DNA of 64,000 nt from Rosistilla carotiformis (GTDB taxonomy: Bacteria > Planctomycetota > Planctomycetia > Pirellulales > Pirellulaceae). The stretch spans positions 1,612,001 to 1,676,000 of the forward strand of contig NZ_CP036348.1 of the NCBI RefSeq assembly GCF_007753095.1, given 5' to 3'. Below the pieces are notes generated by a model that did not search any database, was not told the DNA's origin, and worked only from the letters and a program-made list of their open reading frames with translations. Position 1 is the stretch's first letter. The number at the start of each line of letters is the position of its first letter. This document shows positions 24,060 to 40,167 of the stretch, one piece after another. A program made the position numbers and the translations under genes.

Positions 24060-24219
24060 CCGTAGTGGATTTTGTTGAAGATCCCTTTGCACACACCCTG
24101 TTCCGTAGTGGATCTTGTTAAAGATCCTTTTGCACGCACCCTATTCCGTAGTGGATCTTATGAAAGATCCTCGCCCCGACGTTTTTGATGCTCGACGGAT
24201 CTTTAACAAGATCCACTAC
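24060..24219. repeat. Short palindromic repeat cluster (three direct copies, one inverted)
   Basis: Copies starting CCGTAGTGGAT begin at 24060, 24103 and 24146, a 43-bp period; the third is truncated. Each contains a small hairpin of the form GGATCTT-gtt-AAGATCC. An inverted copy (GGATCTTTAACAAGATCC followed by ACTAC) lies at 24197-24219. This looks like a REP-type intergenic element. It may also act as a transcription end or mRNA stabiliser between the two + strand genes. Confidence 0.7.
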
Positions 24220-29509: not shown

Positions 29510-30121
29510 ATGAGTACAGAAGAGCAGATCCTTGTCATCCCGACTTCGGTGATCGAAGCGTTGGGAGCGTTTGAAGGCTTTGAGCCCGACGTCGACCGCT
29601 ACCTGAAGCCGCTGTTGGCGAGCGACCAGTTGAGCTTTCAACCACGCAGCCAGATGGAAGAGGATCCGTCGTTCAAGCAATTGATTCCTTATGTCGTCTT
29701 GGAGTGGACCGATTCGGACGGCCAGGTGCATCTGTTTCGCTACACCCGTGGCAGCGGCCAAGGGGAAAAGCGATTGCACGCGAAGCGAAGCGTTGGGATC
29801 GGCGGGCACATCTCGTCGGAAGACGCCGACAGCAGCGACTTGTATCGGACCGGAATGCTGCGGGAATTGAACGAAGAACTGGTGATCGAATCGAAGTACG
29901 AAGAACAGGTCGTCGGTTTGATCTACGACCCGTCGACCGCTGTCGGCCGGGTTCACTTGGGGGTCGTCCACCTGATGAAAATGGAATCGGCCGACGTCCG
30001 GAACAACGAATCGGGGCTCGTCGATTCGGGCTTCGCACCGCTGGCGGAGCTGATCAGCCAACGCGACCATTTCGAAATCTGGTCCCAGTTGTGTCTGGAT
30101 CATTTGTATCCGCAGACCTAG
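29510..30121 (+). CDS. Nudix-like phosphoesterase
   Basis: This is a 203-residue cytoplasmic protein. The core GIGGHISSEDAD...GMLRELNEELVIE has the G-x5-E and REL-NEEL elements of the Nudix box, with about six extra residues between them, so catalysis is plausible but not certain. Planctomycete homologues are commonly called phosphoesterases. ATG 29510 follows TTAGGAATCATTCG (AGGA 9 nt upstream). It lies 32 bp after queA and probably shares its message. Confidence 0.7.
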   Translation: MSTEEQILVIPTSVIEALGAFEGFEPDVDRYLKPLLASDQLSFQPRSQMEEDPSFKQLIPYVVLEWTDSDGQVHLFRYTRGSGQGEKRLHAKRSVGIGGHISSEDADSSDLYRTGMLRELNEELVIESKYEEQVVGLIYDPSTAVGRVHLGVVHLMKMESADVRNNESGLVDSGFAPLAELISQRDHFEIWSQLCLDHLYPQT

Positions 30122-30168
30122 GAATGTTAGACTTCGGTAGTCCCCTTGTTCCTTGGAGGACTGCCGCG

Positions 30169-31230
30169 ATGGATGATGACGAATCGATTCATAATCCGCA
30201 CGATCGCTTTGTGCGGCGTTTGTTAGGCGAGCTGGATCGTGTTCGCGATCTCGTCCGTTGGCAACTGCCAGCGGAGGTTCTGGCGGAGCTGGATTTGGAG
30301 AGCATTCGACCGGCGAAGGAGTCGTTTGTCGACATCGCACTCCGCGAAGGACTCTCGGATCTGGTCTTCGATGTCAAACTGTCTCGGGGCGACGATGCTT
30401 TTGTGGTGTTGTTGTTCGAGCACAAATCGACAGCCGATCCGCAGACGATCTTCCAGGTGCTGCGATACATCGTCGGCATCAATGACCAGCGATTGCGGAG
30501 CGGTCAGCCGCTGTGCTGCGTGATTCCGCTGGTCTTCTACCACGGCCGCAGTCCTTGGAACGTTGCTCGGACCATGCAGGAACTGGTTGAATCGCCGGAG
30601 CCCCTGCGTGGTTTCGTTCCCAGTTTCACAATGCCGTTGCTCGATTTGAGCCAATGCAGCGACGAGGAATTGCGAGGCGAATCGGTATTCCTCGCTTACA
30701 TGGCGCTGCTAAAATATATCAAGCGGGATGAGCTGCCCGAGCGGTTGCCAGGAATCTTAGAGCTGTTCAGGAAACTATTGCCACCGGCGACCGCCCTTCA
30801 AAGTTTCGAAACCATCTTACGTTACATCGCTACGGGGACCGACCGCGTTACCAAGTCGCAACTGGTCACAATCGTTCAACAGGCTCTTCAAGTAGAAGGA
30901 ACATCGATCATGCCAACCGTCGCCGAACAATGGAAACAGGAAGGACGCCAGGAAGGCGAGCAGAAAGGACGCCAGGAAGGACGTCAGGAAGGACGCCAGG
31001 AAGGACGTCAGGAAGGACGTCAGGAAGGACGTCAGGAAGGACGTCAGGAAGGACGTCAGGAAGGACGTCAGGAAGGTGAGCAAAAAGGGGAATTGATCGG
31101 CCGGATTCTGGTCATGGAAGAGGTGCTCAAGCGACCTCCAACGCCCAAAGAGCAGTTGGCTGGTCAAGACTTGCAGCAGCTGCAACTCCAGGCAGACGCG
31201 CTGTATGTCGAGCTGAAAGGTCGGCAATAA
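30169..31230 (+). CDS. Rpn/YhgA-family PD-(D/E)XK nuclease with EG-repeat tail
   Basis: This 353-residue protein starts at ATG 30169 with GGAGGA 9 nt upstream. The N-terminal Rpn domain contains GLSDLVFDVKL and VVLLFEHKST, where D and E-x-K match the PD-(D/E)XK active site; QVLRYIVGI and VFYHGRSPWN are also typical. Rpn proteins are DNA nucleases linked to recombination and phage defence. The C-terminal tail has 13 units of Q-E/K-G-R/E (residues about 257-308), encoded by 12-bp DNA repeats. Older databases call this family 'putative transposase', but it is not a transposon. Confidence 0.88.
   Translation: MDDDESIHNPHDRFVRRLLGELDRVRDLVRWQLPAEVLAELDLESIRPAKESFVDIALREGLSDLVFDVKLSRGDDAFVVLLFEHKSTADPQTIFQVLRYIVGINDQRLRSGQPLCCVIPLVFYHGRSPWNVARTMQELVESPEPLRGFVPSFTMPLLDLSQCSDEELRGESVFLAYMALLKYIKRDELPERLPGILELFRKLLPPATALQSFETILRYIATGTDRVTKSQLVTIVQQALQVEGTSIMPTVAEQWKQEGRQEGEQKGRQEGRQEGRQEGRQEGRQEGRQEGRQEGRQEGRQEGEQKGELIGRILVMEEVLKRPPTPKEQLAGQDLQQLQLQADALYVELKGRQ
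30896..30909 (+). promoter_or_regulatory. Internal Shine-Dalgarno within the Rpn gene
   Basis: AAGGA (30896-30900; AGAAGGA from 30894) lies 9 nt before an in-frame ATG at 30910 inside the rpn reading frame. This is a better ribosome site than most true starts in this window, so an internal translation start is plausible. Confidence 0.55.
30910..31230 (+). CDS. Candidate intragenic antitoxin (C-terminal Rpn short form)
   Basis: Initiation at the internal ATG would give a 106-residue protein, MPTVAEQWKQEG..., identical to the last third of the Rpn protein and lacking the nuclease. In enterobacterial Rpn systems the C-terminal domain is separately translated from such a site and inhibits the full-length nuclease. 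Here the product would hold the EG repeats and the closing helix LAGQDLQQLQLQADALYVEL. Transfer of that mechanism to planctomycetes is inference. Confidence 0.5.
   Translation: MPTVAEQWKQEGRQEGEQKGRQEGRQEGRQEGRQEGRQEGRQEGRQEGRQEGRQEGEQKGELIGRILVMEEVLKRPPTPKEQLAGQDLQQLQLQADALYVELKGRQ
30937..31092 (+). repeat. 12-bp tandem repeat (13 units) inside rpn
   Basis: There are 13 consecutive 12-bp units of consensus CAGGAAGGACGT/C, encoding QEGR with a few QEGE/QKGR/QKGE variants at the ends. The central eight units are nearly identical at DNA level, implying recent slippage. Gain or loss of a unit keeps the frame. Confidence 0.95.
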
Positions 31231-31349
31231 TCGAAGGAGCGGTTTGCCTTGCTGTTCAAATGTCAAAGGTCCAGAGGACTGCAGTTCTCTAAGTCAGAGA
31301 GTGTCCCGCCGCGGAGCGTTGGGGCGTGGGTAGCATTCCCTTTCTACGG

Positions 31350-32654
31350 TTAGGCGATCATTTGATCGATCACACCGGTGCTGTCGCCGTGTTGTTGGGC
31401 GTTGACGCCGACGCCGCGCAAGAGCGTTAGCCAAGCGTTGCAGAGTGGCGTGTCCTGAGGGACGACGATGTTTTCGCCCAGCTTGATTCCCGCGCCGCCG
31501 CCAGCGATCAGGGTCGGGCAGTTCGTCAGGTCGTGGCCGGTGCGAAGGTTGCTTCCGTAAGCCAGCACGAGGTTGTCGAACAATCGGCTGCCATCGGCTT
31601 CGCGAGTCTCTTTAAGTTTATCGAGCAAGCCGGCCAGCAGCATGCTCTGCGTCGAGTCCCGTTTCTGCGAGCAGACCAGTTTCTCGCCTCGCGTCCCGTG
31701 ATAGTGACTCATGTCGTGCGGGGCGACGTTTTGGCCGATGCTGGTCAAAAGCGCCGAGACGGGTTGGCGATAGGTGATCACTCGCGTGCTGTCGGTCTGC
31801 AGCGCGGCAACCATCAGATCGTACATCAATCGGATCTCCTCGCGGCCCATCATTTCCGAAGGAGGTTGGGCCAACGGAGCCGCCGGACGCGGCCGTTCCA
31901 GCCACTGTTCGTCTTTGCTCAATCGTGTCTCGATATCGCGGATGCTTTCAAAATATTCATCCAGCTTTTTGTTGTCGTGGTTCCCCAGGCCGCGTTGCAG
32001 GCTGTGGGCATTCTCCAGAACCGTGTCGAGCACACTCTTGCGTTGAGCGATCATCGCGCGTCGTTGTTCCAGTGGCAGCGAGTCTTTGGAGAACAGGCGG
32101 TGGAAAACTTGGATCGGTTCCTTGTCGCCGCCGATCGGTTTTCCACTGGCGTCCCAGGCTAGCGACAGCCCAGGACCGTGCCCCGACCGTCCTGCCGATT
32201 CCGCGTGATCGAACTGCAGCGAAGCGAAGCGCGTGTGCATGCCAAACTCTTTGGCAGCGACCTGGTCGGCGGAGATCGTGTTGCAGAAACTCTGCCCCGG
32301 TTGGCCGTATGGGTTGGCACCGGTCAGCCACCACGTGCTCCCCGCATGCCCTTCGACTGAAAACTTGTTCCGCAGTCCCTGCACGACCGAGAAATCGGAT
32401 CGATGGCGTTCCAACGGCTTCAGCCCTAGCGGAATCTGGTAATCGGCCCCCGGCGTATTCATGTCGGGAAACCACGATTCCTCCGTCACGCCCCAGCCGA
32501 AACCCAAGAAGAGCATCCGTTTGGGCGGCGCTGCGGGCGCCGCAGCTCGGGCGAAGCGCCGGAAGCCAAACGATTCCAGGAAGGGCAACGTGACGGCAGC
32601 CGATGCGGATCGAAGGACTTGTCGCCGCGAGGGTTTTCGATTTGTAGGGAACAT
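31350..32654 (-). CDS. DUF1552 domain protein with Tat signal
   Basis: This 434-residue protein begins with SRRQVLRSASAAVTLPFLESF, a twin-arginine export signal. The remainder (MLFLGFGWGVTEESWFPD, VQGLRNKFSVEGHAGSTWWLTG, LRTGHDLTNCPTLIAGGG) matches DUF1552, an alkaline-phosphatase-like family found almost only in planctomycetes and relatives, always beside DUF1592 proteins. Its biochemical role is unknown. ATG 32654 has AAGGAT upstream and lies 19 bp after the DUF1592 stop. It is the last gene of the sigma-factor operon. Confidence 0.88.
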   Translation of the reverse strand: MFPTNRKPSRRQVLRSASAAVTLPFLESFGFRRFARAAAPAAPPKRMLFLGFGWGVTEESWFPDMNTPGADYQIPLGLKPLERHRSDFSVVQGLRNKFSVEGHAGSTWWLTGANPYGQPGQSFCNTISADQVAAKEFGMHTRFASLQFDHAESAGRSGHGPGLSLAWDASGKPIGGDKEPIQVFHRLFSKDSLPLEQRRAMIAQRKSVLDTVLENAHSLQRGLGNHDNKKLDEYFESIRDIETRLSKDEQWLERPRPAAPLAQPPSEMMGREEIRLMYDLMVAALQTDSTRVITYRQPVSALLTSIGQNVAPHDMSHYHGTRGEKLVCSQKRDSTQSMLLAGLLDKLKETREADGSRLFDNLVLAYGSNLRTGHDLTNCPTLIAGGGAGIKLGENIVVPQDTPLCNAWLTLLRGVGVNAQQHGDSTGVIDQMIA

Positions 32655-32673
32655 GGTGCGGGTTATCCTTAGG

Positions 32674-35382
32674 TTACTTCGATTGAAATTCGGTGCTTTG
32701 AACCAACGATTGAACAAACGATCGGATGGCAAAGTCGTGGTCGCCAGCTTGTCGCAGCGTCTCTTCGATCAAGCCTTCGTCGCTGAACGCCACCGGGCGC
32801 CCCAGCGCGTATTGGATCAAGGCCTCGGTGAAGCCGCGGGCAAACGCATCGTGACGCTGGGCGATCAGGTCGCGGAGTTCAAAGTAGTTCTGAAACGCTG
32901 GCCCGTTGTGCAATGCGCTCGACGGATCGATCGTCCAGCTGATTTTGCCGTCCGGTTTCGGTTTGCCGTTGTCATCGGCGGCGTGGTAACTGTCCTCGGT
33001 TCTCCAGGCGCCGACGGCGTCGAAATTTTCGAGTCCGAAACCGATCGGATCGATCTTGCGATGGCAGCTTGCGCATTGTGGCTCCTCCTGGTGGGCGAGC
33101 ACTCGTTGGCGAGTTGTCAGCGCTTGTCCGGCCAGACGAGCCAGTTGAGGAATGTTGGCCGGTGCCGGTGGCGGTGGATCGTTTAGCAGTTTTCGCAACA
33201 CCCAGACGCCTCGTTCCACCGGGCTAGTGGCGTCGCCGTTGCTGCCCATCAAATGAATCGCTGCCATCCCCAGCAATCCACCGCGTGGCGAATCGGCGGG
33301 GAGTGCGACCTTGCGGTATTCGTCACCGTGAACCCCATCGATGCCATAATAATTGGCGAGCACGGCGTTGATGACTGCATAATCGCTCTTCAGCAGATCG
33401 GTCAGTTTGCTGTTGTTTTTCAACAGCAGGCTCACGGTTTGATAGATCTCCAATCGAGCGGCTTTCCGTGTGCTGTTGTCGAATCGTGGGTGGTTTTGTT
33501 GATTGACCTCAAAGAAGTCGAGTCGTTCGAGTCCCAGCCATTGATAGGTCAATGCGTTGACGAGGTCTTCCGAACGCGGGTCGTCCAAAAGACGCGTGAC
33601 TTGTGCGGCGAGGACCTCGGGGCGATGCAATTCGTTCTTTTCGGCGAGGCCGACCAACACGTCGTCTGGCGGCGAACCCCACAAGAAATAGGCGAGTCGA
33701 TTGGCCAGTTCGCGGTCGTTCAGACGCCGTGGCTGATCGGTCGTCCGCGGCTCCGAATGGTACAAAAACATCGGCGACGCGAGCACGATCGACAGCGTCT
33801 GTTTGAGTGCATCGGGATGCTTTTCTCCCTGGCCACGGTGCCCTTCGTAGATTGCGACCAATCGATCGATATAGGACTCCGATGGCGCTACGCCACGAAA
33901 CGCTTCGGCGGCAAACTGCTTGAAGGCGACGTGCAGTTCATCGCTTGTGGGGCTGGCTGATTTGTCGTGGAATTGCAGTTTGTCGATCGCAGCGATCCCC
34001 GGCGGCTTCGGCTGGCCTGCCGTTGGGACGCGCTCAATCTCCATCCAATCGACCCACAGCGAGAACTTGCGGCCGATCCCATCGTTTTCGTCCCGTCCTT
34101 CCCGGGCAACTCGCGTCGCTTGGACCCAGTCGTCGCGGGTACCCTTTTCGCGGAGGAACAACCAACGATTGAAGCGGTCTTTGTTGGCGCGGGTCATCGT
34201 CAGCGGGAATTCCACGACTTGGGGCGATTCGATCGTCCCCGTGATCTCATGGGCGCTGAACGCTTGTTGGGACCGTGGATTGATTCCAAATTCGATGAAC
34301 CGCCGCTCGGGCGTGGCGTCGGGAGTTACTGCGGCGGCAAAGCGGACGATGTAGTTGCCGACGGGCCAGCTGAACGGAACCAGCAGGTTGATCGTCGCAT
34401 TATCCAGCACCGACGGATGTTCGTTGGAAGCCGCCAGATAGGCACCGGATTCAACCGCTGGCTGTTCTAAATAGTACTGGTGATAGGGGAGATGAAATGG
34501 GTTGAGAGCGGAGATCGCTTTGTCGGCATTGTTCTCTTCGGTTTGGAAGCCAAAGGTCTCCGGCGCGAGCACGCCGGGCAACTTCTTCCAACTGCGATAG
34601 AAGATGTGTCGATGGTTACCCAGTGGTCCCGCTCGAATCTCGGCGATGATCTCTGCATTCTCGGGCAGCTCCACCGCGGCATCGACTTGCTTTGCCCAAC
34701 GCGTCGCCCGCTCCAACGCGTCTCTTTGATCTTCGATCCGCTGGCGAACCTTTTCGGTGATCTCTTCGGTCTCAAAACGCAGCTTCTTTTCCACATCGGC
34801 CGCGGCGTCCCATTCAAACGCCTCTTCGAGCGCTTCGCGTCCCAGAGCCAGGTACTGTTCAAACTGAGTGCTCGACAGGTAGAGATCTGAACCAAAGGTG
34901 TCGAAGCGTCCGCTGGCCGTGTCGGCGGGGAGATCGTTGACCGTGATCTCGACGCCCAACAGCTCCCGCAGCGTATTGCGGTACTCGCGTCGATTCAGAC
35001 GCCGCATCGTGATCCGTCCCTTTTGGTCGGCGAGGACGCGACGCGCGGTGACCATCACGTCGGCCAAGTGGGCCAGGAAGTCGGCTTTCGCTCCTTTGTC
35101 GATCGCCGGTTCGCTCGGCGGCGGCATCTCGCCGGCGTTTAACGCGCCGAGAACCTTCTGCCAACGCGCCGCCGTCGGGTTGTCTTCGATCGACAGCGGC
35201 AGGTCGTCGACGCGGAAGGCAGCTTCCGCGTTCTCGGCTCCGTGACATGCCACGCAATGTTTTTGCAGGAGCGCGAAGTGGTCCTTCGCAATGGCGGCAA
35301 CCGGGACCTCAGCGGCGGCGACCCACGCCCCGGGCAAGCTGATTGCGATCGAAAACAGAAATGAAAGGGCGAACTTTGGCAT
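32674..35382 (-). CDS. DUF1592-type planctomycete cytochrome-like protein (DUF1587/1592/1595/1588/1585)
   Basis: This 902-residue secreted protein has a signal peptide to about residue 24, then a c-type haem site [10 protein letters not shown] (PSCyt1-like). DUF1587 follows with [16 protein letters not shown], a carbohydrate-binding-like middle part, and DUF1592/1588/1585 sections at the end, including [30 protein letters not shown] (second CxxCH) and the final [15 protein letters not shown]. Such proteins are thought to process polysaccharides with haem redox activity; direct evidence is lacking. It is transcribed after the anti-sigma gene with a 37-bp gap. Confidence 0.9.
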
Positions 35383-35419
35383 ATCGTTTGGCAGGATAGA
35401 TTGATGGTTGGTTAAGCGG

Positions 35420-36415
35420 CTAGCGCGGGTAATGCGTCAGCGAAAGCTGGATGTCGTCGATGAAGTGCCCGGCAAACGTGAGCCGCTGCCCCGAGTCGAG
35501 GTCGTCTGGACCGGCGTGGCAGATCGCGATGTGCAGCAACAAAAAATCGGCATCGGCGGGAAGCTTGATTTCACAGTTTCCCTGCTGCCACGTTGCCGGA
35601 TCGACGTCCAGCCGCCAACTCCGGTAGGCAATCGCCAAGGCGTTTCGGTTCTTCAGATCCCCGGCTAGCAGTTTCGGATTCGCAGCGGTTTGCGCGTCGA
35701 TCGCGGTCATCGAGATCACGTATCGGATCCCTTCGTCCCGCGGTTGAGGCGTGGAGTTAAATTGTGCCGTCGCCGTGGCGATCGTCACTCCACTGGCCAA
35801 CTGGGACTGGAACGATCGGAGGTCGATCAAACGATAGAGGTCTCCCCAGTGGCTGCCCGCCGGATCGGACTTCGCTTCGTAATCCGCTCGCAACATTTGC
35901 AGCATCCGATCGCCGCTGGCGGCTTGCACGTTGGATTGGTCGGCGACGACTTGGCTGAAGTCGCCACTGAATCGCCCCGGCATCGTCGGCGGACCGTTCA
36001 CGCCGGGAGTGGTTCCCGATTCGAAGTCTTCGCTGAAGAGCTGTGTTTCTGCTGGCATTTGCAAAAGTCGCGTTACCGGCCAAGCGACTCCCGTGATCAG
36101 AACTCCCAGCAGCATTCCGGTCACCAAGACGTAGGTCGATTTGCCGGGCGGAGTTATCGCCGACGCGATGCTCCATGATTCGGAGCGACGATGGACCGGA
36201 TGGGAAGCTGCCGCCGCGGTGGGGGATGGATCGTCGACAGGCCAAGCTGCCAGGGCGGCTTGAGACGCCAAGCCGCTGACTTCGGCCAGTTCCCAGAATC
36301 GTTGCCTGGCCGGTTCGGAGTGCAGCATCAGCGTTTCGAACTCGGCTTGCTCCGCTTCCGAAAGAGCATCGTCCAGGAACGACCCGATCAAACGATCGAT
36401 GTAGTCATCTTTCAT
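35420..36415 (-). CDS. FecR-type anti-sigma factor with beta-sandwich sensor domain
   Basis: This is a 331-residue protein. The N-terminus (about 1-55, MKDDYIDRLIGSFLDDALSE, LHSEPARQRFWELAEV) is the sigma-binding FecR-like region. A membrane helix lies near 95-115 (YVLVTGMLLGVLITGVAW), and an outer beta-rich domain (about 125-331, FSEDFESGTTP...FIDDIQLSL) resembles glycan-binding jelly rolls. It should hold the ECF sigma factor inactive until a signal outside is sensed. Its ATG overlaps the sigma stop (ATGA), the usual translational coupling of such pairs. Confidence 0.8.
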   Translation of the reverse strand: MKDDYIDRLIGSFLDDALSEAEQAEFETLMLHSEPARQRFWELAEVSGLASQAALAAWPVDDPSPTAAAASHPVHRRSESWSIASAITPPGKSTYVLVTGMLLGVLITGVAWPVTRLLQMPAETQLFSEDFESGTTPGVNGPPTMPGRFSGDFSQVVADQSNVQAASGDRMLQMLRADYEAKSDPAGSHWGDLYRLIDLRSFQSQLASGVTIATATAQFNSTPQPRDEGIRYVISMTAIDAQTAANPKLLAGDLKNRNALAIAYRSWRLDVDPATWQQGNCEIKLPADADFLLLHIAICHAGPDDLDSGQRLTFAGHFIDDIQLSLTHYPR

Positions 36416-36927
36416 TGCGAGCCTCCACTGGCAAGTTGCCGGTCCATGCATTCGCGCAGTGCCATTCGCGTTTTGGAGAGCGCGACGTTGATCGAATTTA
36501 CGGTTCGCGACAGGATCTCTGCGATCTGTGTGGGAGAGTGCTCGCGTTGGTAACGCAAGGAAATGATCTCGCGCGATTTGGGGGCCAGGTCGCCGAGGCA
36601 TTTGGTCAGCGCTTGCAGGCGCTCTTCGCTAGCCCAGTCGTCCGGGCACGAAGCGATCAAGGAATCGATGACATCGACGCTGCGGACGTTTGCCGCCCGC
36701 CGGGCTTCCATGAGTTTGAAACGCAGGATCGAACGACTCCAGGCGAGAAAACTGGTCTCCAGGTCGAATTCCTCCGCTTTGGCGGTGATCGTCAGGAAGG
36801 TCTCTTGGATCAAATCGTCGGCCTGGATGAAGTTGGGGCTCAGCGCGATCGCCATCGCTTTCAGCTGGGATTGATGCTGAACGAACAACTGTTGCACTTG
36901 GAGGGTATGGTCGGGGGGATGTTTCAT
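36412..36927 (-). CDS. ECF sigma-70 family RNA polymerase sigma factor
   Basis: This is a 171-residue ECF sigma factor. Region 2 (about 15-80: LKAMAIALSPNFIQADDLIQETFLTI) recognises the -10 element. Region 4 (about 115-165: LAPKSREIISLRYQREHSPTQIAEILSRTVNSINVALSKTR) binds -35. The full length is typical. It starts the operon sigma / anti-sigma / DUF1592 / DUF1552, so it probably controls its own operon and glycan-use genes elsewhere. No autoregulated promoter was convincing by eye. Confidence 0.93.
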   Translation of the reverse strand: MKHPPDHTLQVQQLFVQHQSQLKAMAIALSPNFIQADDLIQETFLTITAKAEEFDLETSFLAWSRSILRFKLMEARRAANVRSVDVIDSLIASCPDDWASEERLQALTKCLGDLAPKSREIISLRYQREHSPTQIAEILSRTVNSINVALSKTRMALRECMDRQLASGGSQ

Positions 36928-37278
36928 GGTCGCTTTCTATAACTATGACGCGACGCGCCAAAGACTTAGCCAACATTTTGCAGAAAAAATGCCGCCAAGG
37001 GGGCGTGCCGTCGCTCAGCTTGCCGTTTTGTGCGGAATCTGAGCCCGCAGCAGGCCTGGGAGAATCGTAACCAATGACGGTTGGGCAGCGTGTCGCGAGA
37101 GGCGTCGATCGCGCAGATAGCCGCCGCGGGCGGCCATTCAGGAAAAGGCTGAAGGCGTATGGCAGCAAGACCCATAGGGGGGCGAGCCTGCGCCCCATGG
37201 GATGTCTTCTTAATGTGAAGCGTCCCGTTGCGGAGAGCAGCGGGATTACTTTGTCTCGGGACCGCAGGCCCCGCGCGA
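36928..37278. other. Intergenic region between TerC and sigma operon, with a hairpin
   Basis: This 351-bp gap holds the unresolved promoter of the sigma operon at its left end. A hairpin at 37171-37201 has arms CCCAT..GGGGCG / CGCCCC..ATGGG with small bulges. No T-tract follows on either strand. No coding frame was recognised. Confidence 0.45.
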
Positions 37279-38245: not shown

Positions 38246-40015
38246 ATGGATGAACCGTTAACTCACCGGCAATCCCAGTTGCAGACCTGCATCGCCGGAC
38301 TGTTAGGAATGGGGCTGATGTGGCTCGCTCACCCGCCGGTCGGTTTCAGCTTTTTGGCCTGGATCGCACCGCTGCCTCTGCTGTCGCTGGTCCATCGCAA
38401 TCAACCGCTGTTCCGCCGCGATTACGTTTGTCTGTGGCTGATCGGTGCACTTTTTTGGTTTATCGCGTTGTCGGGCATTCGGCACGCCCATCCGATGCTG
38501 ATCCCCGCCTGGATCGTGTTGGCGGCGTATCTGGGCATCTACACGCCGCTGTTTGTTGGACTCACCCGCGTCGCTTGGCACGGCTGGCGGATGCCATTGG
38601 TCGTCGCCGCCCCGGCGGTCTGGATCGGTTTGGAATTGGCTCGCGGTTACGCCTTGTCCGGTTTCAACGGCGTGATGCTTGGGCACACGCAAGCCAACCT
38701 TCCCTGGATGCTGCAGATCGCCGATCTCGGTGGAACCTACGCGGTCAGCGCGGTGGTTATGTTTGTCTCCGCTGCCCTGGCGGTTTGTCTGCATTGCCGA
38801 CGGTTGGCGGGGACGGAGCTGTCGGTCGCCACGTCGCGCCGACGGCAACTGCACGCGATCCTCAACGGCACCGCGGTGCTGGCAGCGACGCTCGGTTACG
38901 GGCTGTTTCGGCTGAGAGAGGCGGAGACGGTCGTCTCGCCCGAACCGATGTTGAAGGTCGCGCTGGTGCAGCGCGACGTCGAAGCGGTCTACGAGTACAG
39001 CGAGCAGCGCGAACTGGAGACGGCACGGAAGTATTTCAGTGGTTCCCGCGATGCGGTGTCGGCCGATCCGGGAGTCCAATTGGTCGTCTGGCCCGAGTCG
39101 AGCTATACCGCTGCGATGCCGTGGCGGGTGTTGGAAGATGACTTTACGGTCCCCGCCGACGCCGGCATGACGCGGGCTGAAATCGTCGCGGGGGTTCGCG
39201 ACAGCCAAAACATGTTCCAGCGTCGAGCCGCCGATATCCAGCTGGGGCTGACGGCCGCCAGCGGGCGATCGCTGCCGCCTAGTCTGATGGTCGGCTGCAG
39301 CGTGCTGCGGTATGTCGATGGGCCGGTCCAAGTCTTCAGCGGCGTGGTCACGATCGATCCGACGGGCAAAGTCCCCGCCTGGTACGGCAAACGTCACTTG
39401 GTGATGTTTGGCGAATACATCCCGTTTGCCAATCGGTTCCCTTGGCTGTACACGGTCACACCGTTGCAGATGGGGGTCACGCCGGGAGACGCTCCGATCG
39501 TCGCGGACGTCAAAGGGGTGAAGGTGCTGCCGAGCGTCTGTTTCGAAACGATGGTGGAACGGGTGACGAACAAGCACTTGCGTCAACTGGCAGCCGAAGG
39601 GAAGCCGGCCGATCTTGTCGTCAACGTGACCAACGACGGCTGGTTCGACGATTCGGCGATCCTCGAGCACCATCGACGTTGCAGCCAATTAGTCGCCGCG
39701 GCGCATCATACGCCTGTCTTAATGGCGGCCAACGGTGGTCCAACGGTCTCGATCGACAGCAGCGGCCGAGTCGTTGGGCGTCTGCCGCACCAGGACGAAT
39801 CGTTTTTGATCGCCGATCCGCGGCAGGATCCACGCGTTTCGTTCTATCAACGCGTCGGCGACTGGCCAGCTCGCTTCGCCACGCTGTTGTGTATCTCGCT
39901 GGCGATCTCGGGTTGTCGGGGACGACGGCGACGAAAAAAGCAGTTGCCGCTGCCAAGCGTCGAATCGCCAACCGATCTGATCGGCGACGCAGGTTCGGAG
40001 CCGCCACGCGTTTAA
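38246..40015 (+). CDS. lnt: Apolipoprotein N-acyltransferase
   Basis: This is a 589-residue inner-membrane enzyme that adds the third acyl chain to lipoproteins. The N-terminal part (residues 1-225) has about seven membrane helices. The periplasmic nitrilase domain has the catalytic triad Glu284 (VVWPESSY), Lys382 (YGKRHLVMFGEY) and Cys432 (PSVCFETM). A final helix follows about 560-580 with a basic C-terminus. AGGA lies 7 nt upstream of ATG 38246. The window encodes clear lipoproteins (e.g. at 52307), which need this step. Confidence 0.93.
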   Translation: MDEPLTHRQSQLQTCIAGLLGMGLMWLAHPPVGFSFLAWIAPLPLLSLVHRNQPLFRRDYVCLWLIGALFWFIALSGIRHAHPMLIPAWIVLAAYLGIYTPLFVGLTRVAWHGWRMPLVVAAPAVWIGLELARGYALSGFNGVMLGHTQANLPWMLQIADLGGTYAVSAVVMFVSAALAVCLHCRRLAGTELSVATSRRRQLHAILNGTAVLAATLGYGLFRLREAETVVSPEPMLKVALVQRDVEAVYEYSEQRELETARKYFSGSRDAVSADPGVQLVVWPESSYTAAMPWRVLEDDFTVPADAGMTRAEIVAGVRDSQNMFQRRAADIQLGLTAASGRSLPPSLMVGCSVLRYVDGPVQVFSGVVTIDPTGKVPAWYGKRHLVMFGEYIPFANRFPWLYTVTPLQMGVTPGDAPIVADVKGVKVLPSVCFETMVERVTNKHLRQLAAEGKPADLVVNVTNDGWFDDSAILEHHRRCSQLVAAAHHTPVLMAANGGPTVSIDSSGRVVGRLPHQDESFLIADPRQDPRVSFYQRVGDWPARFATLLCISLAISGCRGRRRRKKQLPLPSVESPTDLIGDAGSEPPRV

Positions 40016-40071
40016 CCGCTATACCGTTCAACGACGGCGTTTCGGACCGTCGAAAGAATTAGCGGCGGGAT

Positions 40072-40140
40072 GTAGTGGACGAGGTTACGAGTCCCAGCGA
40101 TTTGGTCTGATGCAAAAGGACTCGTAACCTCGTCCGCTAC
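40072..40140. repeat. Inverted repeat pair with 23-bp arms
   Basis: A 23-bp left arm (40072-40094, GTAGTGGACGAGGTTACGAG then TCC) and its inverted partner (40118-40140) differ at one base; the spacer is 23 bp. The outer GTAGTGGA is shared with the element family at 24060, so both may derive from a common repeat type. It sits after lnt and before a convergent gene. Confidence 0.75.
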
Positions 40141-40167
40141 GCTTCGTTAAACGACGGCGCCCGATGG

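Follow-up and report, generated by a model that had tools for sequence, protein, structure and literature searches.

The analyzed window comprises 64,000 nucleotides of the Rosistilla carotiformis genome (contig NZ_CP036348.1, positions 1,612,001 to 1,676,000), and the coordinates below refer to this stretch. It carries an rpn gene with a candidate second start inside the same reading frame, downstream of a conserved gene. The features of the locus are as follows.

29546 to 30121, plus strand: conserved left-flank gene without a Pfam or NCBIfam match; the variable stretch that bears rpn has its left edge at the stop of this gene
30155 to 30159, plus strand: GGAGG, Shine-Dalgarno (SD) sequence of the full-length ATG start (SD energy, -9.3)
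30169 to 31230, plus strand: rpn gene for a full-length, RpnL-type nuclease of 353 amino acids (PF04754, E value of 2.1e-46; TIGR01784, 62.6 bits, cutoff of 52.1)
30358 to 30426, plus strand: putative PD-(D/E)XK active-site stretch with the codons of D64, E84, and K86 (aligned columns of 114 planctomycete genes)
30896 to 30900, plus strand: AAGGA, SD sequence of the internal start, with a 9-nt spacer (SD energy, -5.7; the same in the sister-species orthologue L053)
30910 to 31230, plus strand: inferred rpnS, from an internal ATG (M248) to a 106-amino-acid C-terminal product; aligns with M244 of Escherichia coli RpnA, at which the chain of PDB entry 7TH0 starts
30937 to 31076, plus strand: 12-nt tandem repeats encoding 4-amino-acid units of the GRQE type, 11.7 copies; the units begin at residue 257, 9 residues past M248

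The original prediction of an Rpn nuclease gene at 30169 to 31230 was borne out by profile searches. The PF04754 domain (YhgA-like/Rpn) spans residues 9 to 202 of the protein and scores 158.5 bits against a Pfam cutoff of 21. Among the NCBIfam models, TIGR01784 lies above its cutoff and the RpnA model far under its own. The reading frame is intact, and so is the motif formed by D64, E84, and K86, which we take to be the putative catalytic residues of a PD-(D/E)XK-type enzyme. Across the 114 aligned planctomycete genes, the D64 column is invariant (D in 114), the E84 column contains E in 105 and D in 9, and the K86 column contains K in 57, Q in 53, V in 3, and R in 1. PADLOC returned a single weak match (SP_VI; E value of 0.025), and a phmmer search of the whole protein against the PDB yielded four weak matches, every one within the repeat region. 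At the DNA level, no relatives of 30169 to 30870 were found in the E. coli genomes searched.

The nearest known counterparts are the Rpn proteins of E. coli, as presented in a preprint by Zhong et al. (2023; PMC10327210). There, RpnA M244 is the mapped internal start of the antitoxin RpnAS, and the combined changes K240R, E241D, and M244L, which alter both the SD sequence and the Met, abolish RpnAS. The 4-amino-acid repeats begin 8 to 20 residues after the internal Met, and RpnCS no longer counteracts RpnC once a single repeat is added. The same source describes the gain and loss of rpn genes, as well as an rpn gene of Clostridioides difficile that makes RpnS from an internal start when expressed in E. 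coli.

In our alignment, M248 of the window protein coincides with RpnA M244 and with the internal Met of RpnB, RpnC, and RpnE; the first residue of the 7TH0 chain is this same M244. The window gene and its relatives share several properties with the E. coli RpnA-E/RpnS systems (PMC10327210): the PF04754 nuclease domain, an SD-bearing internal start at the homologous Met, 4-amino-acid repeats shortly past that Met (9 residues in the window gene), a repeat number that varies between close relatives, and separate rpnS copies adjoining some rpn genes. The C. difficile gene is alike by description, with an RpnS made from an internal start outside the Enterobacteria. The window protein differs from its E. 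coli counterparts in sequence, with 26% identity to RpnA and 24% to RpnC over the aligned stretch. The residue after its internal Met is P (MPT) rather than T, and its SD sequence lies in E-G codons, in a codon frame that differs from that of the K-E codons in RpnA, RpnB, and RpnE. In addition, its short form would have 106 amino acids with about 12 repeats, compared to 49 amino acids in RpnA.

Within the window gene, the start signal is unexceptional. Among the five internal in-frame ATGs (30574, 30631, 30700, 30910, and 31114), only the one at 30910 has an SD energy below -4. A mechanical selection of 34 long open reading frames (ORFs) from the window contains 281 internal ATGs, of which 20 have an SD at least as good as this one, so that a single SD-bearing ATG in a gene with five is not rare; an SD of this strength lies near the 5' end of 11 of the 34 ORFs. 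Since, in addition, 75% of the synonymous recodings of the same peptide yield an equal or better SD, the site at 30910 alone is not beyond chance, and synonymous recoding of the window gene by itself gave no signal. The end of the host 16S rRNA carries a canonical anti-SD tail. The original prediction had described an in-frame ATG at 30910 with an ideal SD 9 nt upstream, which would yield the C-terminal third of the protein. The ATG, the AAGGA at that distance, and the size of the product (106 residues, 30% of the protein) all hold, but the SD is ordinary rather than ideal: it is weaker than those of the two closest paralogues of the host (-7.9 and -8.8), and an internal TTG at 30295 reaches the same level (-5.8). 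A search for sigma-70-like internal promoters in 30000 to 31400 found none. A longer antitoxin starting between residues 178 and 247 was considered and rejected for the window gene, given that the three start codons in this interval have weak SDs (-3.0, -3.1, and -4.3).

It is the comparative evidence, not the window gene alone, that decides the case. Best matches were drawn from two sets: 392 genomes of the phylum, 56 of which have PF04754, and 149 genomes of the family, 66 of which have a match to the window protein. The resulting set contains 114 unique full-length planctomycete genes, 79 genes from named genomes, mostly Enterobacterales, and 4 genes of E. coli K-12; as the best-scoring matches listed, partly hand-picked as full-length, these relatives are a non-random draw. 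Five planctomycete genes have no repeat by a G-x3-G rule, and 20 of the remaining 109 have no ATG in the 25-residue zone before the repeat; counts out of 89 leave out both groups. An SD with an energy of -5.65 or lower precedes the ATG just upstream of the repeat in 72 of the 89 genes, compared to 9 of 136 other ATGs in the same genes. Reduction to one planctomycete gene per 60%-identity cluster leaves an SD in 37 of 44 cases at the site and in 5 of 56 at control ATGs. If any start codon with an SD of -6 or lower is accepted, one lies in the zone before the repeat in 79 of 109 genes, against 13, 17, and 22 of 109 in three control zones (12 to 20% across five zones). The original prediction had named conservation of the site in orthologues as a check, and the site is mostly kept. 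Judged by these comparisons, both the homology of the position and the pattern across the phylum go beyond chance, which the signal of the single gene does not.

Much of this conservation is expected from the encoded peptides. When ATG sites were synonymously recoded with codons drawn from the nuclease domain only, an SD of -6 or lower was expected in 51.6 of the 89 Planctomycetota genes and observed in 68, a modest excess. Among the named-genome relatives, mostly Enterobacterales, it was expected in 21.6 and observed in 64 of 72. This version of the analysis replaced a variant that also drew on repeat-region codons (79 of 109 observed at -6 or lower, 61.4 expected).

The encoded residues vary, however. 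The core of the SD is found in all three codon frames, in 38, 27, and 7 of 72 planctomycete genes, and the residues that encode it are typically E-E, E-G (as in the window gene), or R-S. On a tree of the 114 planctomycete genes, the 4 E. coli K-12 genes, and 19 of the 79 named-genome genes, at least 16 changes of SD frame are needed, with some frame calls resting on weak or ambiguous SDs. Moreover, seven genes (L159, L193, L196, L161, L197, L205, and L168) encode Val or Leu at the site, with a GTG or TTG codon and an SD of -8.1 to -12.6, which implies that the long protein does not require a Met at this position. Because the SD persists through changes of its codon frame and of the encoded residues, the start signal itself appears to be under selection. 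Three SD frames with differing residues, together with GTG and TTG starts, are hard to explain by protein function alone, and the way in which most of the examined Planctomycetota genes keep the start signal points to constraint on the RNA.

The signal is unevenly distributed over the tree. No SD-bearing start codon was found near the repeat in 18 of the 114 planctomycete genes, and a further 5 are those in which no repeat was detected. A single clade of 22 genes (support of 81) contains 13 of these 18 and 4 of these 5, and any SD-bearing start is present in only 5 of its members. In two of them, L025 and L030, the Met is kept and the SD is absent; many other members of the clade have lost both. 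A fully supported branch separates the 114 planctomycete genes from the other 23 genes of the tree, so that no recent exchange is seen between the planctomycete and the other sampled rpn sets.

Between close relatives, the length of the C-terminal region changes in whole repeats. The short form of L053, the orthologue in the sister species (G006), would have 74 amino acids compared to 106 in the window gene, a difference of exactly 8 repeat units. In four other orthologue comparisons within the genus, the repeat number differs by 2, 2, 0, and 1 units. Over codons 1 to 190, the G006 orthologue and the window gene are separated by 16 synonymous and no amino acid changes. Further downstream, synonymous differences amount to 22 of 41 in codons 191 to 238, 0 of 8 in codons 239 to 248, and 7 of 12 in codons 249 to 262. 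The quiet island at codons 239 to 248 departs from its surroundings (0 of 8 against 29 of 53; Fisher P = 0.005; longest-run shuffle, P = 0.025) on the basis of few codons. The jump in divergence near codon 190 looks like recombination, and in view of such a breakpoint the island is taken as no more than supportive.

The surroundings of the gene differ between the genus genomes as well. Conservation of the left flank extends to all three genomes examined. In G072, homology stops at 30121, the stop codon of the upstream gene, and the place has no rpn; tblastn found no rpn in the 13 kb beyond the equivalent of this position (best E value of 0.74). In G006, the sequence matches the window from 37268 onward about 0.3 kb after rpn, and the intervening 31231 to 37267 (about 6 kb) has no match in a 15-kb G006 stretch. 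These differences place the rpn gene at a variable site, which fits the rpn gain and loss described in PMC10327210. Several further observations concern the window itself. The interval 31231 to 37267 includes minus-strand ORFs at 31350 to 32732 and 32674 to 35382, and about 23 kb separate the conserved left flank of G072 from its match to 31348 to 36073. A 43-nt tandem repeat (2.6 copies, 89% matches) occupies 24060 to 24171, between two ORFs of at least 150 amino acids. In addition, about 130 to 145 nt at 40009 to 40153 have further matches at 91 to 94%, inverted in another part of the G006 stretch and also in a G072 stretch, and possibly represent a dispersed repeat.

Separate genes for the C-terminal region were sought within the fetched loci, mostly 1 to 1.5 kb on either side of rpn. 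C-terminal-only ORFs adjoin the full gene in L021, L022, L023 (two copies), L054, L181, L191, and L230. In L191 and L230, the intact ORF opens directly after the full gene, with 11 and 17 residues, respectively, ahead of the Met; the SD-bearing ATG (-8.9 and -12.4) is hence the evident start. The copies in L021, L022, L023 (both), and L054 have 51 to 58 intact residues upstream of the Met and keep an SD-ATG at the M248 position. In this upstream stretch, dN/dS is 0.12 to 0.35 in four parent-copy comparisons, and L022 shows 2 nonsynonymous and 0 synonymous changes; the changes are few in number throughout. From the Met to the motif after the repeats, five of seven copies differ from the neighboring rpn by 1 to 6 whole 4-amino-acid units (-1 in L054, +6 and +5 in L023, -6 in L022, and -1 in L191), and those of L021 and L230 are equal in length; L181, L162, and L221 were left out of this comparison. 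ORFs in L033, on the opposite strand, and in L234 were discounted as chance occurrences. The C-terminal ORF of L211 was not counted as a separate short gene either, because it forms the end of a second rpn copy that is broken up over three frames; the pair count stands at five of seven without it. This second copy lies on the minus strand downstream of the full gene, and its C-terminal part is still an open frame with an SD-ATG.

Structure prediction places the internal start, with low confidence, at the end of a linker that leads into a long helix. The full-length model (39 sequences; mean pLDDT of 73.9, about 58 to 61 around the internal start; pTM of 0.57) has a linker at residues 242 to 248 and a helix at 249 to 319, followed by two more helices. 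The model of the short form (42 sequences; mean pLDDT of 88.7; pTM of 0.49) contains helices at 4 to 74, 79 to 82, and 85 to 104. Foldseek matches of the full-length model are weak (best E value of 0.018; EndoMS, EcoO109I, and NurA at 0.4 to 0.8) and leave the nuclease fold unconfirmed by structure. For the short form, Foldseek returned nothing significant (best E value of 4.1), with 7TH0 absent among the best 25 matches listed; the likeness to 7TH0 thus rests on sequence position and predicted secondary structure.

Taken together, the gene most probably represents the Rpn type of intragenic toxin-antitoxin system in a planctomycete, with a long nuclease toxin and a short antitoxin. One frame would encode two proteins, the full-length nuclease from 30169 and the 106-residue product from 30910. 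By analogy, full-length Rpn would be a toxic DNA cutter of the PD-(D/E)XK type. The short product would start at the N terminus of the long helix built of 4-amino-acid repeats and would serve as an antitoxin that pairs with this helix in the full-length protein; the number of repeats would decide which short form fits which long form. The homology, the position of the start, its SD, and the conservation of the start signal in most relatives are seen in the sequences. Production of the short form, toxicity, neutralization, and a role in phage defense are projected from E. coli. The original prediction of a likely intragenic antitoxin is therefore supported through the RpnA M244 position and the mostly kept start signal, and neutralization is carried over by analogy.

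Several other explanations, which are not mutually exclusive and whose odds overlap, have to be weighed against this one. The gene might yield the nuclease alone, with the Met and the codons that resemble an SD kept for the protein as the start of a helix (M-P-T-I-A-E, preceded by E-G or E-E) and with the repeat helix serving only as an oligomerization arm of the nuclease. Peptides alone do predict many of the Planctomycetota SDs (51.6 of 89), the SD of the window gene is average for its peptide, and the Met comes before the predicted helix. Such an account is nevertheless improbable, as it has to accommodate an SD retained in three codon frames with different residues, the replacement of ATG by GTG and TTG with strong SDs, the excess in the named-genome relatives (64 of 72 against 21.6 expected), the intact ORFs of L191 and L230 that open just before the ATG, and the loss of RpnAS upon SD and Met changes in E. 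coli RpnA (PMC10327210).

Alternatively, the short form could be longer, with a module that begins near residue 193 to 208 as in the separate Pirellulaceae ORFs and with M248 as a secondary start. The intact 51 to 58 residues in L021, L054, L022, and both L023 copies, the dN/dS values in the four parent-copy comparisons, and the divergence jump at about codon 190 all fit such a module. Recent duplication or gene conversion would equally explain an intact stretch, however, and the changes are few, with no synonymous one in L022. The same copies retain the SD-ATG at the M248 position, and the weak SDs at residues 178 to 247 of the window gene also make a longer form quite improbable. Marginally less probable still is a system that functioned in the past but has become neutral or is decaying in this host, where the short form may be made without an antitoxin role. 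Its SD is weaker than those of the two closest paralogues, and it has 8 repeat units more than the sister orthologue; on the other hand, the frame and the D/E/K motif are intact, 190 N-terminal codons differ from the sister species by 16 synonymous and 0 amino acid changes, and the length has changed in exact 4-amino-acid units.

With the intragenic toxin-antitoxin reading preferred, the Rpn gene-within-gene design extends, by sequence evidence, from E. coli and the C. difficile gene, where experiments have established it, to a further phylum; among the matches listed in our literature searches, no paper on a planctomycete RpnS was found. Given the sequence evidence for selection on the start signal, the concealed short product deserves annotation in many planctomycete rpn genes. 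The signal-poor clade and the repeat-mismatched separate copies are natural test cases for recognition between long and short forms. Given that one extra repeat disables RpnCS in E. coli (PMC10327210), mismatched separate genes may not serve the neighboring rpn. It is conceivable, though rather doubtful, that they provide free-standing immunity against other Rpn alleles, paralogous or incoming, and that rpn is an allele-recognition system with a repeat-length code. If so, the mobile unit in Pirellulaceae would include the 51 to 58 residues upstream of the internal start.

The host genome encodes four further Rpn paralogues of the TIGR01784 type (L049 to L052), which share the NCBIfam family and the presence of repeats with the window gene. 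They differ from it in having no MPTIAE motif and a candidate start elsewhere in the alignment. L050 has no comparable MYDxRE ATG with an SD. In L049, L051, and L052, an internal ATG in a MYDxRE motif has an SD of -5.9, -5.9, and -9.5, respectively, upstream of repeats or a G-rich helix; this other branch of the Rpn family may have a second internal start at a different place.
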